This document shows positions 47,343 through 59,532 of a stretch of DNA of 64,000 nucleotides, piece after piece. A model generated the notes under the pieces. It did no database searches. It saw nothing but the letters and a program-made list of their open reading frames with translations, and was not told the origin of the DNA. Location of the stretch: contig NZ_AP027368.1 of NCBI RefSeq assembly GCF_030296015.1, forward strand, positions 2,728,001-2,792,000, read 5' to 3'. Within the stretch, counting starts at the first letter, position 1. Every line of letters starts with the position of its first letter. The translations under genes and the position numbers were made by a program. The DNA comes from Ferrimonas sp. YFM. Lineage in GTDB: Bacteria > Pseudomonadota > Gammaproteobacteria > Enterobacterales > Shewanellaceae.

Positions 47343-47572
47343 CTAAGCGGTAAAAGGAGGGCGTTGCTGAATCTGAATAGCAAACAACTTTCTCTCGGCC
47401 TCTTCGCTGGAAGCTTCATCTAAAAGCTTCTTCAAATTCTTCTGCAACATCAATTCCTGCTGTTCCACCGTCAAACCATACTCACTCATGGTTTGCTGTG
47501 GGCCTGCATGTGCTGCTCTGCCAGCATGAGATCGCTGTCCAGCGCATTAATGTACATCAACATCTCGATCAT
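47343..47572 (-). pseudogene. third borosin precursor peptide, frameshifted
   Basis: Reading from ATG 47572 (preceded by AAAGGAG) gives MIEMLMYINALDSDLMLAEQ then HMQAHSKP and a stop. A second frame then gives MSEYGLTVEQQELMLQKNL and continues to FAIQIQQRPPFTA. The two halves join by restoring one base near 47498-47504, which turns the junction into HMQDPQQTMSEYG, closely matching HQQDPQNAMSEYG of the intact precursor at 47609. So a one-base deletion broke a SonA-like precursor of about 76 aa. It is the last gene of the cluster. A sequencing error cannot be excluded. Confidence 0.8.
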
Positions 47573-47608
47573 CGTTTACTCCTTTAAAAATGGGCCTTGC
47601 CCGTTACA

Positions 47609-47854
47609 TCAAACAGTTTCAACTTCCGGCACCACCGGGCCATTCTGCTGAACCTGAGGGGCTCGAATCACTAAGTGTGCATCTTCTATTCCCATCGCCT
47701 TGGCGATCTCAGAGAGGTTACCCTCAAGCAGCACTTGGCGTTGATCCACGGTCAATCCGTACTCACTCATGGCATTCTGCGGATCTTGTTGATGCCTTTG
47801 CGCCAAGGTCGGATCCACATCCAGGGCATTCAGGTACAGCAGCAGCTCAATCAT
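47609..47854 (-). CDS. borosin-type RiPP precursor peptide (SonA-like), copy 1
   Basis: 81-aa precursor. The N-terminal part, about residues 1-50 (MIELLLYLNALD ... DPQNAMSEYGLTVDQRQVLL), resembles the borosin binding domain of SonA, ending with a hydrophobic core-like tail (HLVIRAPQVQQNGPVV). In borosins the methyltransferase iteratively methylates backbone nitrogens in such a C-terminal core. Start ATG 47854 overlaps the methyltransferase stop (GGAG is 6 nt upstream), so enzyme and substrate are translationally coupled. Methylated positions cannot be read from sequence. Confidence 0.82.
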   Translation of the reverse strand: MIELLLYLNALDVDPTLAQRHQQDPQNAMSEYGLTVDQRQVLLEGNLSEIAKAMGIEDAHLVIRAPQVQQNGPVVPEVETV

Positions 47855-48686
47855 CATCTTCTCCGTTTGATCTATTTTTCTCATCCCACACTGATTCTGC
47901 CAGGGTCTGCAACTTATCCAGCATGGCATTATCCGCAGCCATCTCCCGACAAGGTGGCACCACCAAAGTGGTGATCTGATTCAGAGTGGCCTGGGGCAGT
48001 TCGGCCAGAGGCAGGCGCTCGATGCGGGTGGGCTCCAGCGGCGAGGTGGCCGCCTCATACAGGATTACCTCATGGTCCAGCGGGTAATCCTGGGACAGCT
48101 TCTCCACCAACAATTTGATGTAGGCCTGATGAGTCTCGAACCGCTTCATGGAGAGATCTCCGGCAACGCCAGGCTGCCACAGGATCAGCAGCGCACTGGG
48201 GTCAATGCGCCGCTCATAAATCATAAACTGGGTGCACTCCATCGCCTGTTCGCCGGCACTGGCCGGGTCGACCTCCAGATCCGCATACAAGCAGTCCGCC
48301 GCCGATATCCCAGGTTCAATATGCGCCGGAAACTCCTCAGCCCGGGCGAGATCTATCGCCTTCTTGGAGATGCAAGAGAACACCGAGGGGTGACCATAGA
48401 ACACCGCGCACACTCTGCGCCCCTTGCGCACCTCCTCCATAATGCGCTCGGCCATCTCATCATAGGTCTGGCCCCGAGGCTTACCTTCGCCGCCGCCCTC
48501 GCCATAGAGATCCAGCAAACAGCGATACTCCTTGCTCATCTCCTTAATCCATTGGCGGCTCAGATGATTGGCCATGGCCGCCAACACCACATCAGCCTGC
48601 TCAATACAGCTTTTGGCCCTGGGAGTAAGCTGACCAGCCAGTCGCATCCCGGAGCCCACACAAACCAAACTGCCCTGTTTGCTCAT
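47847..48686 (-). CDS. borosin alpha-N-methyltransferase (SonM-like)
   Basis: 279-aa S-adenosylmethionine-dependent methyltransferase of the tetrapyrrole-methylase fold. The N-terminal VCVGSGMRLAGQLT and YGHPSVFSCIS motifs, DLYGEGGG and the C-terminal TTLVVPPCRE fit the stand-alone (split) borosin methyltransferases, whose Shewanella member SonM N-methylates the precursor SonA. It is not fused to its substrate. The next gene is the precursor at 47609 (4-base overlap-type coupling), and a second precursor lies upstream at 50609. I start at ATG 48686; a GTG at 48689 is equivalent. A precorrin or uroporphyrin methylase is unlikely given the neighbours. Confidence 0.85.
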   Translation of the reverse strand: MSKQGSLVCVGSGMRLAGQLTPRAKSCIEQADVVLAAMANHLSRQWIKEMSKEYRCLLDLYGEGGGEGKPRGQTYDEMAERIMEEVRKGRRVCAVFYGHPSVFSCISKKAIDLARAEEFPAHIEPGISAADCLYADLEVDPASAGEQAMECTQFMIYERRIDPSALLILWQPGVAGDLSMKRFETHQAYIKLLVEKLSQDYPLDHEVILYEAATSPLEPTRIERLPLAELPQATLNQITTLVVPPCREMAADNAMLDKLQTLAESVWDEKNRSNGEDDD

Positions 48687-48707
48687 CACTCAATCTCTTC
48701 CTACAAC

Positions 48708-48752
48708 AAAAAAGCATACCCGGTAGCGGCGATAAGCCACCGCCGGGTATGC
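48708..48752 (-). terminator. terminator between TPR-GGDEF gene and methyltransferase gene
   Basis: On the minus strand GCATACCCGG and CCGGGTATGC form 10-bp arms and are followed by six T (48708-48713). It lies 6 nt after the GGDEF gene stop, so the precursor at 50609 and the GGDEF gene can be expressed apart from the methyltransferase. Confidence 0.85.
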
Positions 48753-48757
48753 CCTTT

Positions 48758-50596
48758 CTACTTCAGTGGTACCTGACCATGCTCGGCCTGCAAAGTACAT
48801 AGGCCCAACGACGGCTTGTAGGCATCGGTGCTTTCATCATCCAGTACCGTCGCCACCCGGTTGCGCCCCAGATGCTTGGCCTGGTACAGGCACTTATCAG
48901 CGGTCACCAGAAGCTTATCCAGACTGTCCACGGCCTCATCCAGCTTGGCCACCCCAAAACTGGCACTGATATCCAGTTTGTTGTTGGCCACCGGCGCAAT
49001 GATCCGCTCCAAGCCCTCACGACAGCGTTCCGACAACTGCCTGGCCTGTTCGATATCCGTATTGGGCAAACAGATAACGAACTCCTCACCACCCAGGCGA
49101 CCCAGAATATCCTTGTCACGGATGCTGTTGCGAACCACACGAGACACCGTCTTCAACACCCAGTCACCCACCGCATGACCAAAGGTATCGTTAATCTTCT
49201 TGAAGTGGTCCAAGTCAAACACCACCAGAGACAGCGGCTGCTCCCGCCGCTTCGCCTCAGCCACCGCCTTGGTACAAGACTCCATCAAACTCACCCTGGA
49301 CAGCACCTTGGTTAACGCGTCCGTTTCCAATGAAACCTTAATTTTAGCCTTCTGCTTCTGAACAAACACGACAACCACAGCCAGCAATATACACGCCAAA
49401 GAGGACCAAATAAGCAATACACGAATCTGATTAAAACGTGTCTCGGCTAATTGATTTTCCAAATGAAGCTTGCGATTTCGCTCCTCAGCCAAGTTCAATT
49501 GATGAACATAATCTGATGCTTTTATCGAAGCTAGGCTGAAAACCATAGACTTTTTCAAAATCTCTTCTTCAAAACTCTTATGTAACTCTACGGCCTTTAA
49601 GAGATACGCGTTTGCGTCTTGAAATTCGCCTTTCTGGATAGAGGCTTCAGACATATACTCATAAACATCAATCAAGTGATCTGAATACTCTTGAATCTCA
49701 AGGGTTTCCTGAGCCTTTTTGAGATATGAATAAGCAATATCTGGACTGCCCAATCTTATATATGAAAACCCTATATACTTCTCAAGTATAGAAACAAACT
49801 CGAACCCTTTTGATTTATCTGAATTTTTGTATTCTTCTTCACCGACACGAATTGCTTCTGCATACCTTTCCGTTTCGGCAAGCTTACGAGTTTCAAAGGC
49901 AACTAGCAACGATACGACCATCATATCGTTCGAATTTATACAAGTCGATTTTGCATCGCTATAAACTTCATCAAAACTAGAATATTCTTCCGTATTTAAA
50001 TACAGATCCAATTTGTTCGCCATACCATAGCACTGTATTCTAAGGTTGGAAGACTCTAATCCCAACTCCACCATCTTATCAGCAAAACTCAAAGACTCTT
50101 CGTACATAAATAAGTGTTTATATGTAGTAACAACAGAATGTAGAACCATTGACCGACTCAGGGGAGTACCTATCTCTGATAGCAAGTCTACAGATTTTGT
50201 CACATAACCGAGAGCATCATTATAACGACCAAGCACCACAAGAACTTCAGAATACTGTTGAAATGCCTTCGCACGACTATCAATTGAGGCCGACTTCCAA
50301 TCGAATGAATCTAGTGCTGCTAATCTCTCCTCACTCTTATGCCTAATCCCAAGGTGATAAGCCAAATACAGATGATATCTTTCCTTTTGAATTTCATTAA
50401 GGTTTTCAATATTCTTTTCCAAGTACAAGAAATACGATTCAGCTTTATCAGGATCTTCAAAAGAAAGCTGAGTAACTTTGTTGATTATGTCTTCATAGCT
50501 TTCCTGTCCTTTTACCGGACAGACTAGAATAAAAAGCGAAAACACAAAAACAAAAAGAGTACGATGATAATTTTTATAGTCAGCGTACCCTTTCAT
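48758..50596 (-). CDS. TPR-GGDEF membrane protein (probable diguanylate cyclase) in the borosin locus
   Basis: 612 aa: a signal sequence or first helix (residues about 12-28, LFVFVFSLFILVCP), a periplasmic region of TPR-like helix pairs (about 35-370), one membrane helix near 388-412 (LLIWSSLACILLAVVVVFVQ) and a cytoplasmic GGDEF domain with the intact signature RLGGEEFVI near residue 500, expected to make cyclic di-GMP. It sits between two precursor genes, which is unusual for a signalling protein, and lies 12 nt after the upstream precursor. AT-richer codons in the N-terminal half suggest a fusion or a different origin from the GGDEF part. Confidence 0.88.
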   Translation of the reverse strand: MKGYADYKNYHRTLFVFVFSLFILVCPVKGQESYEDIINKVTQLSFEDPDKAESYFLYLEKNIENLNEIQKERYHLYLAYHLGIRHKSEERLAALDSFDWKSASIDSRAKAFQQYSEVLVVLGRYNDALGYVTKSVDLLSEIGTPLSRSMVLHSVVTTYKHLFMYEESLSFADKMVELGLESSNLRIQCYGMANKLDLYLNTEEYSSFDEVYSDAKSTCINSNDMMVVSLLVAFETRKLAETERYAEAIRVGEEEYKNSDKSKGFEFVSILEKYIGFSYIRLGSPDIAYSYLKKAQETLEIQEYSDHLIDVYEYMSEASIQKGEFQDANAYLLKAVELHKSFEEEILKKSMVFSLASIKASDYVHQLNLAEERNRKLHLENQLAETRFNQIRVLLIWSSLACILLAVVVVFVQKQKAKIKVSLETDALTKVLSRVSLMESCTKAVAEAKRREQPLSLVVFDLDHFKKINDTFGHAVGDWVLKTVSRVVRNSIRDKDILGRLGGEEFVICLPNTDIEQARQLSERCREGLERIIAPVANNKLDISASFGVAKLDEAVDSLDKLLVTADKCLYQAKHLGRNRVATVLDDESTDAYKPSLGLCTLQAEHGQVPLK

Positions 50597-50608
50597 AATA
50601 GAAAAGCT

Positions 50609-50824
50609 TTATTTCTGTTGAACTTGAACGACGTTAACCAAATCCTGATCAGAGTTGGCACCCGACAACGCACGTATTTTATCTGAATCACCAGACATCA
50701 CTGCAGCAATCTCTTCATCACTTAATCCATAAGTTTTCATTGTGCTTTCAGGGTCTTTCTTATGAGCATCCAGCAGATCAGCGTTGCTATCCAGTTCATT
50801 AATGTAATCGAGCAGTTTAGACAT
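50609..50824 (-). CDS. borosin-type RiPP precursor peptide (SonA-like), copy 2
   Basis: 71-aa peptide MSKLLDYINELDSNADLLDA with the same layout as SonA: a leader that includes DPESTMKTYGLSDEEIAAVM, SGDSDKIRALSG, then the core-like tail DLVNVVQVQQK. The leader is the one closest to Shewanella SonA as I remember it. AGGGAA precedes the ATG. It is first in the locus, followed by the TPR-GGDEF gene after 12 nt. It shares the Q-V/I-Q-Q tail with the other two precursors. Confidence 0.82.
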   Translation of the reverse strand: MSKLLDYINELDSNADLLDAHKKDPESTMKTYGLSDEEIAAVMSGDSDKIRALSGANSDQDLVNVVQVQQK

Positions 50825-50968
50825 CTTATATTCCCTAATTATGACAGTCCCTGAGTGGTTTCCGAACCACTACAACGACAGAAACCGATGAAAAATCATA
50901 CCAATGCGCGCCACACCTCGTAAAGCACTTCTTTAACCTTTCCACAACACCCCACCCCCTCATACCCA

Positions 50969-51124
50969 GACACCCAACCTTTCACTCTCCCCCACACCTC
51001 CATTGCCAATTCCCCACTTCCACGCTCAGTTGCCACCGGCAGCGCCCCACTTCTGTCAGCTCAGCCCCATTAAAAGGCTGCTGCAACGGATCCAGTCAAC
51101 TGCAACAGGCCTATTAGCCAAACA
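50969..51124 (+). repeat. direct repeat, unit 1 (~156 bp)
   Basis: Starts GACACCCAACCTTTCACTC and ends CTATTAGCCAAAC. The second unit begins 174 bp later; the two match over nearly their full length with scattered changes. Confidence 0.8.
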
Positions 51125-51142
51125 AGACGCCCTCCATATTAA

Positions 51143-51297
51143 GACACCCAACTTTTCACTCTCCCCCACACCTCCATTCCCAATTCCCCTCTTCCACACT
51201 CAGTTGCCACCGGCAGCGCCCCACTTTTGTCAGCTCAGCCCCTTAAAACACAGCTGCGCAGCCTCCAATCAACTGCAACAGGCCTATTAACCAAACT
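51143..51297 (+). repeat. direct repeat, unit 2 (~155 bp)
   Basis: Starts GACACCCAACTTTTCACTC and ends CTATTAACCAAAC. Both units share CAGTTGCCACCGGCAGCGCC. Confidence 0.8.
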
Positions 51298-51362: not shown

Positions 51363-52337
51363 TTAGCCGAGCAATCGCTTCGCCGCTGTTGTGCCCCGAA
51401 CTCGCTGCATCAGATTCGCATCGCCACAGCGCCTGAGGCTGTCTACCCGGCCAGCATAATGACTGAACTGATACTCAAACCCCTGAGTCAGCTCCAGCCA
51501 AGAATCCGCCTCCACGTTCAGACGTTGCAGCAAGGAAGGAGTACAGTCATCCATATACCCTTTTCCCTCCACCATCACCCTGGCGGTCATCTCCACCAGA
51601 TCCAGGTAATCATTAAGGTGACAGGGCAAAGCGTCTTCTTTCCCACCGGGTGAGGTAAAGCTCTTTAGGAATGCAGGCTGCTTCCCCACCTTTGCAGATT
51701 GAATTCGCCGTCGAATGCTGGTGTGTTTCGAATCCTCAGGCTTCTTTGCCATGCCTGAACGTACCGGGTTGAGATCGACATATGCCATGCACGCTAGAAG
51801 CGCTTGCTCATCCAGTAAGGCCTGGGAACGAAACCGTCCTTCCCAAAACCTGCCAGTGCACTCGTCTTCTTTATTGGCTTTACGGGCGATGTATTCATTA
51901 AGAGTCCGCATAAACCAGCTGATGTCCATCAGGCGTGTTCGATAGAGGTCAGCCTGCATTTTGACGAGGTCCAGTTCCCAAGGCTCCAAGGAGTCTCTCT
52001 GCTCTTCATCAACAAAACGTTTAGTGAGAGCGTTTCCAGAGAAGAGCTGATGCCATCGAGAAACGACTTCGACATCATCCCAGTCCTTCGCGAGCTCCAC
52101 ATTCACATAGAGCACAAGGTGCGTGTGGTTGCTCATCACCGCATAGGCTGCGACCTCAATGGCAAACACCTTGGCAAGGGACAACAACCTGTCCTCTACC
52201 CACTGACGACGGTGTTCGTAGCTTTTACCACTGTACTGGTCCCTACCACACAGAAATGAGCGCCGGACACATCGGCTGATGCAATGGTAGTGGCGCGTGT
52301 CATCCAAGCTGACTTGTTGCTTCCTGGCCTTTGGCAT
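51363..52337 (-). CDS. REP-associated tyrosine transposase (RAYT, IS200-like Y1 family)
   Basis: 324-aa HUH/Y1 transposase of the RAYT type. The HUH motif is SNHTHLVL near residue 69-76; an arginine-rich region and the single catalytic tyrosine (YVDLNPVRSGMA, or the Tyr in SWFMRTLNEYIAR) follow. RAYTs are domesticated enzymes linked to REP palindromes rather than mobile copies. Here repeats sharing GGGTGTCT and TATG-GAGGG occur on both sides of the gene (50941-51300 and 52393-52500), which supports the assignment. Start ATG 52337 with AAGGAGG before it. The length is long for the family (usual RAYTs are 150-300 aa). Confidence 0.85.
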   Translation of the reverse strand: MPKARKQQVSLDDTRHYHCISRCVRRSFLCGRDQYSGKSYEHRRQWVEDRLLSLAKVFAIEVAAYAVMSNHTHLVLYVNVELAKDWDDVEVVSRWHQLFSGNALTKRFVDEEQRDSLEPWELDLVKMQADLYRTRLMDISWFMRTLNEYIARKANKEDECTGRFWEGRFRSQALLDEQALLACMAYVDLNPVRSGMAKKPEDSKHTSIRRRIQSAKVGKQPAFLKSFTSPGGKEDALPCHLNDYLDLVEMTARVMVEGKGYMDDCTPSLLQRLNVEADSWLELTQGFEYQFSHYAGRVDSLRRCGDANLMQRVRGTTAAKRLLG

Positions 52338-57584: not shown

Positions 57585-57762
57585 CATCATGCCCCTGAGT
57601 CTCTCAACCTCACAAAACCGCGGCCCGACGGCCATTCTTTACTTACCATCCATTCTAATCTGATGGCAAATTTGTAAGAATGACCCTGAGATCTGCAGCA
57701 GGTGATTTACATTCACCCGTCATAGGATCACAGTTTTAACATTGGATTGGTCGGACTCACGG

Positions 57763-59532
57763 ATGAAACAGCTCTCCTTCACGCTTGAAGACCACAACGA
57801 TCTCTCTCAGTTCCTGAGCGATCCCGAACTGGCTCGCCTGGCCATAAGCGCCAGTGCCATGCTGGTTCAGCTCTACAGTGCCTACCAGGATCCACAGCGG
57901 CTGGAGCAGATCGCCTCAGAAACGCTCAAACGCTTTCCCCAGGCCCAGGTGGTCGGAGCCACCACAGTCGGTGAGATCCATCAGGGCCACACCCTGACCG
58001 GCAACACGGTGATTGGGGTAACTCTGTTTGAGTCGAGCGGAGTGGAATCTCTGTTCCTCCCCTGCATCCGTGGGGAAGAGAATCAAACCGGCCGGGAGCT
58101 GCGCCAGTTGCTGGAGCAGCGCCTGGAAGTGGCCGGACTGCTGCTGCTCACCACCTCCACCGCCTTCAATACCAATACCCTGATCGCCGAGCTGGGCAGC
58201 CAGCCCCTGCCCTTCCCTGTGTTCGGCGGCGGAGCGGCGGATTATGGCAAGGTAAAACGCTCCCTGGTGGTGCACCAGGGCAGATGCCATGAAAGTGGTG
58301 TGGTGGCGGTGATCTTCAAGGGCGCCGATCTTCAGATCGACTGCCACAGCTACCTGGGATGGCGCGCCCTGAGTAAACCCATGGTCGCCACCGAGGTGAA
58401 GGATCTCAGCCTGAAGCTGCTGGACAACCGTCCCGCCTTCGAGGTGCTCTCCCGCTACCTCAACATCACCAATGACGACAGCTTTCATCTGAGTGCCCTG
58501 GAGTTTCCCCTGATGGTTACCCGGGGAGAGCACACCCTGGCGCGCACCCCCATCTCTGTGGGACGGGGACGCAGCATCGAATTCTTTGCCGACATCAAAC
58601 AGGGTGAGCAGGTGCGACTGGGCTATGGCGACCCACGGATGATCATCCGCGATGCCCGGCAGGTCCATGACAAGATGGCTGAATTTGCGCCACAAGCGGT
58701 GTTCCTCTACAGCTGTGGTTGTCGCCGATTCCTGATGCAGGAGCAGGTCGAACTGGAAACCCACCCCTTCCAGCAGCTGGCACCCACCATGGGCTTCTAC
58801 ACCTATGGCGAGTTTTACGGCAACGGCGAAGAGTTGTTACTGCTCAATTCCACCATGGTGGCCGTGGGGATGCGTGAAGGGGAAGCCGGCAGCGAGCCCA
58901 GGCTGGCTCAGCAGTCTCTGGATGACACCGCTCAGGATCGCCTCGACGACCCCTACGCCAATCAGCATATCCGCATCATGGAGCGGCTGATGCATTTCAT
59001 CGACGCGGTCACCGACGAGCTGCAGCAAGCCAGCCACGAGCTTGAAGAGAAGGCCACGGTCGACAAGCTGACCCAGTTACCCAACCGGGTTCAACTGGAA
59101 GAGCTGCTGACCCAGGAGATTCTCCATGAGGAGCGATACGGCCGCCCCTTCTCATTGATCTTACTGGATATCGACAACCTGTCGGAGATCAACGACCGTC
59201 ACGGCCGGCTGATTGGCGATGAGGTACTGTCCGAAACCGCCCAGTTGCTGAACGCCCACACCAGGCGCACCGACTTGGTGGGACGCTGGGAGGGGGGCAC
59301 CTTTATGGTGATCCTGCCAGACACCCAATTGGCTGAAGCCAAGGTCGCCGCCATCAAGCTGTACGCCATGTTTGGACAGACCCACTTCACCCATGGCGAG
59401 CACTGCACCGCCAGCCTGGGCGTGGCCCAATACCCGCCTGGCTATGCGCTGGAGCAGATGGTCAGCCGGGTGCGCCAGTCCCTGAGCCGGGCCAAGCAGG
59501 CCGGGGGAGATCAGGTACACACCCTGAGCTGA
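57763..59532 (+). CDS. FIST domain protein with degenerate GGDEF domain
   Basis: 589 aa. N-terminal FIST and FIST-C sensory domains (about residues 20-360), then a coiled coil (ELQQASHELEEKATVDKL) and a GGDEF-type domain. The GGDEF signature is replaced by EGGTF (WEGGTFMVIL, near residue 510), so cyclase activity is unlikely; the I-site RxxD motif is also not clear. FIST domains bind small ligands such as amino acids. The start ATG 57763 has no strong ribosome-binding site; the frame is open to a TTG at 57742. It may be a receptor in c-di-GMP signalling rather than an enzyme. Confidence 0.88.
   Translation: MKQLSFTLEDHNDLSQFLSDPELARLAISASAMLVQLYSAYQDPQRLEQIASETLKRFPQAQVVGATTVGEIHQGHTLTGNTVIGVTLFESSGVESLFLPCIRGEENQTGRELRQLLEQRLEVAGLLLLTTSTAFNTNTLIAELGSQPLPFPVFGGGAADYGKVKRSLVVHQGRCHESGVVAVIFKGADLQIDCHSYLGWRALSKPMVATEVKDLSLKLLDNRPAFEVLSRYLNITNDDSFHLSALEFPLMVTRGEHTLARTPISVGRGRSIEFFADIKQGEQVRLGYGDPRMIIRDARQVHDKMAEFAPQAVFLYSCGCRRFLMQEQVELETHPFQQLAPTMGFYTYGEFYGNGEELLLLNSTMVAVGMREGEAGSEPRLAQQSLDDTAQDRLDDPYANQHIRIMERLMHFIDAVTDELQQASHELEEKATVDKLTQLPNRVQLEELLTQEILHEERYGRPFSLILLDIDNLSEINDRHGRLIGDEVLSETAQLLNAHTRRTDLVGRWEGGTFMVILPDTQLAEAKVAAIKLYAMFGQTHFTHGEHCTASLGVAQYPPGYALEQMVSRVRQSLSRAKQAGGDQVHTLS

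Follow-up and report, generated by a model that had tools for sequence, protein, structure and literature searches.

A split borosin locus of Ferrimonas in which the peptide core and the neighbouring sensor domain are replaced together

What is the peptide of a split borosin pathway for? The question is raised by a locus of Ferrimonas sp. YFM, lying in a stretch of 64,000 nucleotides (contig NZ_AP027368.1, positions 2,728,001 to 2,792,000; hereafter the window), at which a methyltransferase resembling SonM and precursor peptides resembling SonA are separately encoded, the arrangement of the type IV split borosins. All genes of the locus lie on the minus strand, in the order sonA1, receptor-like gene, sonM, sonA2, sonA3. 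According to the main text of PMC8429565, no pathway of this type had been tied to a final natural product as of 2021. Comparison between related loci shows that the core of the peptide and the sensor part of the adjoining receptor-like protein are exchanged together, and this co-replacement of peptide tip and sensing half suggests that these little-understood borosins are chemical signals with matched receptors. Below, L-numbers denote loci and G-numbers the genomes compared, G000 being that of Ferrimonas sp. YFM itself.

The hypervariable cassette, approximately 49322..50657 as delimited by sequence comparison and guanine plus cytosine (G+C) content, comprises the C-terminal part of SonA1 (50609..50824, 71 amino acids) and residues 1 to about 425 of a receptor-like protein (48758..50596, 612 amino acids), in which a sensor with tetratricopeptide repeats (TPR) precedes a GGDEF domain. 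The nearest loci are those of other Ferrimonas, and in five species of the genus the locus occupies one chromosomal site, with his genes converging downstream. Among these species SonM is 91-95% identical, with a synonymous divergence (dS) of 0.37-0.88, and the GGDEF part 84-93% identical (dS 0.30-0.88); the sensor is 23-43% identical, with a non-synonymous divergence (dN) of 0.51-1.00 and saturated dS, and the SonA core differs. In steps of 100 columns, nucleotide identity is 29-69% within the sensor; in the first 500 columns of the GGDEF part it is 76-95%. G+C content in the window is 37% in the sensor, 58% in SonM and 56% in the GGDEF part, and the sensor lies below both of the others in 71 of 79 loci.

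Further diguanylate cyclases of these five genomes supplied N-termini as controls, drawn from 30 plus 20 of the 187 GGDEF matches (20 of these 50 loci being chosen by hand); pairs were scored where the GGDEF domains were at least 70% identical and the N-terminus at least 120 amino acids long. At the locus in the window (locus 1), the N-termini of the 10 Ferrimonas pairs are 24-42% identical at a GGDEF identity of 89-96%, and those of 55 distinct non-borosin pairs are 48-95% identical. Within single genome pairs, nine non-borosin controls give 82-95% against 31% at locus 1 (G000-G009), and seven give 84-92% against 29% (G005-G008). A natural contrast is provided by a second borosin locus in the Ferrimonas sp. 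YFM genome, some 39 kb farther on in the chromosome and outside the window, where a second SonM (G000:C1:2815435-2816202; L003:7427-8206), 35% identical to the first, is accompanied by the same three parts, precursor, TPR-GGDEF gene and SonM, with a degenerate GGDEF motif (GGNQI). The N-termini of its four scored pairs are 71-94% identical, in the manner of the controls (94% in G000-G009, 90% in G005-G008), and core and sensor are conserved in the closest species pairs, the core being identical and the sensor 94% identical between L003 and L087.

The edges of the exchanged block are sharpest in Shewanella. Between L076 and either L077 or L080, the DNA is mostly 92-99% identical over SonM, the SonA leader and GGDEF, apart from isolated steps that drop to 65-75% close to where SonM starts and to 83-87% in the GGDEF part, and 39-61% identical from the SonA core into the receptor. 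In steps of 20 nucleotides, the matches between L076 and L080 drop from 20/20 through 13/20 to 7/20 around SonA codon 56-57. They recover, from 7/20 to 20/20, near receptor codon 314, about 100 residues ahead of the GGDEF match at 413. The left edge thus coincides with the boundary between leader and core, and the methylated positions of SonA, 63 and 65 (PMC8429565), fall inside the swapped block. The Ferrimonas loci show a less abrupt left edge, perhaps within the leader, and their right edge falls near the GGDEF domain.

Core and sensor also co-vary inside conserved flanks, a pattern that is clear in close pairs. Where SonM is at least 90% identical (25 pairs), the Spearman correlation is 0.95 between core and sensor and 0.10 between core and GGDEF; core and sensor still correlate at 0.76 in the 61 pairs with SonM at least 80% identical. 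When SonM, GGDEF and leader are controlled for, the partial Mantel correlation of core and sensor is 0.41 (p 0.001, n = 79), or 0.48 (p 0.0005) in the 38 loci of SonA type; that of core and GGDEF, with the sensor controlled for, is 0.09 (p 0.007) and 0.17 (p 0.03), respectively. As the pairs share members, p-values for pairs overstate the significance.

How general the association is was assessed in a set of stretches around SonM matches of E 1.4e-40 or better together with 21 named loci (L008-L028); L004-L007 were dropped as duplicates of L063-L066, and L029-L033 contain no SonM match at the score used. An automatic rule, requiring a precursor and a GGDEF protein encoded on the same strand within 1300 nucleotides with more than 250 residues before its GGDEF domain, is satisfied by 80 of the 99 SonM genes, and the other 19 were read singly. 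An intact receptor-like gene, either a long-sensor GGDEF protein or a TPR-type histidine kinase, lies beside 92 of the 99, against a rough chance expectation of about 1% per gene. At L068, L069 and L012 there is a GGDEF gene, with no precursor detected and no TPR match in Pfam, and at L095 a divergent GGDEF protein, again with no TPR match, stands beside SonM. A histidine kinase with TPR matches takes the place of the receptor for eight SonM genes at seven loci: L118, L126 (where the TPR match is weak), L127, L130, L131, L133 and L134, the last with two SonM genes in tandem and a single TPR-histidine kinase (L134:6137-7778). The receptor is split into a TPR open reading frame (ORF) and a separate GGDEF ORF at L106; L015, L027 and L136 lie at contig ends, with TPR fragments in L015 and L136; and L028, L105 and L135 have no receptor-like gene beside SonM. 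At L135 an HD-domain/DUF3391 protein, possibly a cyclic di-GMP phosphodiesterase, is encoded near SonM on the same strand (L135:3996-5255).

The arrangement of these genes is also nearly fixed. Of 79 unique receptors, 78 have the nearest precursor immediately upstream, the peptide gene adjoining the receptor gene as it does in pheromone systems, and this is so in both of the gene orders found, SonM-SonA-receptor (61) and SonA-receptor-SonM (17). The gap between SonA and receptor is 0-60 nucleotides in 58 of the 79 and the ORF calls overlap in the other 21. In a sample of the class, SonM was matched at E 1e-30 or better in 9 of 369 genomes, adding seven loci, of which L203 and L204 (SonM 48-49% identical) have receptor-like genes, that of L203 encoding a protein with no TPR match. 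At L204 a single SonM is accompanied by both a TPR-histidine kinase and a TPR-GGDEF gene (L204:4288-10236).

The receptor-like protein itself was overlooked by an earlier note on this DNA, which took sonM to be flanked by SonA1 and SonA2. Both precursors are real, although SonA1 does not adjoin sonM, since the 612-residue gene separates them. Its Pfam matches are GGDEF (1.7e-42), with the motif GGEEF, and TPR_12 (1.7e-07); a likely signal peptide, together with a membrane helix preceding the GGDEF domain, implies that the TPR part should be periplasmic. Simple hydropathy predicts an N-terminal hydrophobic segment in 72 of 79 receptors and a later membrane segment in all 79. Cys189 and Cys219 (numbering of the protein in the window) are invariant in 49 aligned receptors, and TPR_12 is matched in 32 of 49; in a wider set the cysteine pair is found in 81 of 87, the six without it all being histidine kinases. 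The GGEEF motif is present in 68 of 80 receptors, degenerate in five and unmatched in seven. Within the Ferrimonas sp. YFM genome the receptor profile is matched in full length only at the two borosin-linked genes, and elsewhere the matches lie largely in the GGDEF part, with the exception of a partial match (profile positions 15-330) at 4383468. Besides the protein's own entry, four relatives of the sensor were listed, at most 27% identical, in a search that was not exhaustive and missed L064 (37%).

The earlier note's identification of a stand-alone SonM-like peptide backbone N-methyltransferase holds. The gene starts at 48689 (GTG) or 48686 (ATG) and ends at 47847 (47847..48689, 280 amino acids), and its product matches SonM in the PDB (7ltc) at E 1.9e-73 over residues 5-260, Pfam TP_methylase at E 1.2e-23 and, in the PDB search, the fungal OphMA at about 4e-39. 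Y58, R67, Y71 and Y93, residues of SonM that were probed by mutation (PMC8429565), are all matched when the PDB alignment is read by eye. Identity as a cobalamin or siroheme methylase, the alternative that the note had proposed to check with tetrapyrrole-methylase profiles, can be rejected: CobM/CbiF scores 28 bits against a cut-off of 259.65 and CysG 25 against 400, and of the NCBIfam cut-offs for CobM, CobI, CysG and CobA none is reached, all scores falling far below.

SonA1, the cognate precursor, matches SonA in the PDB at E 6.2e-13 and has a borosin-binding leader of about residues 1-55 and a core of about residues 56-71, ANSDQDLVNVVQVQQK, a limit taken over from SonA; V63 and V65 stand where SonA has the methylated L63 and I65. 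The leader match is weaker in SonA2 (47609..47854, 81 amino acids), whose ATG overlaps the sonM stop and which matches the PDB SonA at only E 0.02; when 1739 small ORFs from the vicinity of SonM genes are searched with a SonA1-only profile, it is found at E 2.6e-07, and it matches the SonA of the Ferrimonas locus L063 at 3e-19 in one-to-one BLASTP. A homologue search with SonA2 returned SonA2 alone, being word-limited and missing the L063 SonA (38%). The third precursor is frameshifted, as had been proposed. The two halves of SonA3 (47343..47575) lie in different reading frames, 47575-47486 from stop to stop and 47489-47343, the first-half stop overlapping an ATG of the second half, and it shares a repeat with SonA2; the second half aligns to SonA2 at 40% identity, is unlisted by the SonA1-only profile even at E 10 and scores E 1.1e-03 with the iterated profile.

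The split borosin observation is therefore confirmed, with a type IV SonM, two intact SonA-like precursors and a frameshifted third copy, and homology supports the presence of more than one precursor. The interpretation placed on it, three divergent precursors served by one enzyme in a combinatorial variant, is not well supported, as the third is broken and a locus with several precursors is not in itself unusual: more than one was detected at 8 of the 92 loci where any was (L009, among the eight, also has two SonM genes). As a whole, the note's reading is partly supported. The SonA2 core scores 61 against the L063 core and 21 against that of SonA1, the best of 300 shuffles reaching 47. The second precursor at the Shewanella locus L077 has the FLLVNHGN core of the L076 precursor, to which it is 79% identical, against 69% identity to its own neighbour. 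These likenesses imply that additional precursors can carry the core of another type, and they seem more in keeping with signal types that were displaced or are foreign than with a combinatorial library. That the SonA3 core was copied from that of another species is not borne out, its closest match (L064) falling short of significance (p 0.06 against shuffles), and the same holds for the second precursor of L067 (p 0.06).

These lines of evidence, namely the linkage, the fixed order of SonA and receptor, the co-exchange starting at the leader/core boundary and the swappable GGDEF and kinase outputs, together point to a ligand-receptor pair, and it seems probable that the borosin is a signal for the adjacent receptor, exchanged with the sensor as a pherotype-like cassette. 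Binding of the SonA leader by SonM and N-methylation of the core have been demonstrated in Shewanella oneidensis (PMC8429565), and the pair in the window would be expected to act likewise. The methylated core would then reach the periplasm or the outside, for which no candidate route was found, and be bound by the TPR sensor domain of the 612-residue protein, as the co-exchange suggests; binding would alter GGDEF activity and hence cyclic di-GMP. Comparison shows core and sensor passing between lineages as a single cassette, set in a frame (leader, GGDEF, SonM) that is better conserved; SonA2, and with less support SonA3, may be leftover or foreign signal types. A broader proposal, that the split borosins of this clade are N-methylated pheromones with pherotypes, in which core and periplasmic TPR sensor are swapped together, the sensors being mounted on GGDEF or histidine-kinase outputs, and SonA2-like extras are active signals of a foreign type by which neighbours of a different type are addressed or jammed, is speculative and on balance doubtful.

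Several observations weigh against a signalling role. Core and sensor are contiguous, so that their joint exchange could be hitch-hiking and arise if the receptor sensed some other ligand under diversifying selection and the core, having another job, were carried along beside the 5' end of the sensor. The leader tracks the sensor too, at 0.73 in the 25 closest pairs and with partial Mantel correlations, core controlled for, of 0.19 (p 0.001) and 0.18 (p 0.003); and in the 276 pairs with SonM at least 70% identical, where co-variation is not clear, core and sensor correlate at 0.36, below core and GGDEF (0.47) and leader and sensor (0.68). The pairs are, moreover, not independent, because the loci are related. 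This explanation is nonetheless judged rather unlikely, given that the left edge in L076-L080 sits at the leader/core boundary, that the core-sensor correlation persists after control for the leader, that extra precursors at two loci bear other known core types, and that the adjacency of SonA and receptor is preserved in two gene orders. Low G+C is no clean sign of hypervariability: the conserved sensors of the second locus have 57% in L003 and L087, yet 48% in L083 and 46% in L084. The full-length likeness of SonA2 to five other Ferrimonas SonA is about equal (36-38%, against 31% to SonA1), hence only its core points to L063. Five more distant loci, L205-L209 (SonM 34-39% identical), have no GGDEF match and no receptor-like ORF was noticed there; receptor linkage in all SonM-like genes is accordingly rejected, and the link seems confined to the SonM clade with SonA-like leaders. 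No exporter or protease was noticed beside the cluster in the ORF list, in which no systematic search was made. The pepsin-like protease shewasin as a partner is rejected, as PF00026 is found in none of the 14 Ferrimonas genomes searched, including that of strain YFM.

Bacteriocin-immunity cassettes also diversify jointly, and the cassette in the window is low in G+C, as might be expected of a polymorphic toxin-immunity pair in which the borosin is antibacterial and the periplasmic TPR domain neutralises it. Immunity, however, needs no signalling output, yet GGEEF is retained in those 68 of 80 receptors and histidine kinases occur in others, which makes this explanation improbable. Least probable is an ordinary split borosin with several substrates, yielding a small family of peptides from one enzyme next to an incidental GGDEF gene. 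Two intact precursors do lie beside one enzyme, and core tolerance is reported for the related enzyme SahM (PMC11285071), but a receptor-like gene found next to 92 of 99 SonM genes is no incidental neighbour, and besides a broken third precursor there is the fact that multi-precursor loci are a minority.

Some features of the surroundings may be recorded. Upstream of SonA1, a gene at 51363-52337 has a weak Y1 transposase match (Pfam E 0.0011), and beside it are two direct repeats of 119 nucleotides (90% identical; 50956-51074 and 51130-51248); the gene and repeats might help recombination. ORFs upstream of SonA in L063 and L066 start almost like this gene. Another protein with a C-terminal GGDEF domain is encoded at 57742-59532, its N-terminus being 76-90% identical in the Ferrimonas pairs scored. 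No known RNA element, cyclic di-GMP riboswitches included, reaches the gathering score in the window, and a scan for promoters and terminators gave no excess relative to shuffles. PF00026 genes occur in 13 of 97 relatives, in 11 of these near a SonM that belongs to another subtype (G050, G040, G026, G029, G055, G046, G032, G048, G024, G056 and G076) and in G063 and G087 away from SonM matches.

The proposed system resembles comQXPA and agr, polymorphic peptide-pheromone systems in which the peptide and the sensor domain vary jointly inside conserved flanks and the peptide gene lies beside the receptor gene. It differs from them in its Gram-negative host, in a peptide expected to be N-methylated on the backbone and in a TPR-GGDEF receptor. 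In the RRNPP receptors Rap, PlcR and AimR, a TPR domain binds a short peptide, as is proposed here; unlike those cytoplasmic receptors, the borosin-linked ones are predicted by hydropathy to be periplasmic, and their output is GGDEF or histidine kinase. SonM/SonA of S. oneidensis MR-1 (PMC8429565) belongs to the same gene family, with a stand-alone methyltransferase, the same key residues and a separate precursor with a SonA-type leader, and the locus in the window departs from it in gene order, extra precursors and core sequence. The main text of that paper has no mention of GGDEF, diguanylate, tetratricopeptide or signal. GGDEF is defined in the Figure 1 legend of the borosin type schemes in PMC11395268, the main text of which does not mention TPR, diguanylate, quorum or signal; judged from the legend, at least one published borosin architecture presumably shows such a domain, and the GGDEF neighbour itself is hence probably not new. 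None of the papers searched contains both 'borosin' and 'diguanylate'; two works cited in PMC11395268, Imani 2022 and Cho 2022, may describe gene neighbours or loci with several precursors.

If the signalling role is correct, the type IV split borosins would gain a function, a target and a simple test, the Shewanella loci that differ mainly in the cassette being a ready natural experiment. Gram-negative bacteria would gain a form of ribosomal-peptide signalling with exchangeable types, feeding cyclic di-GMP or phosphorelay pathways.

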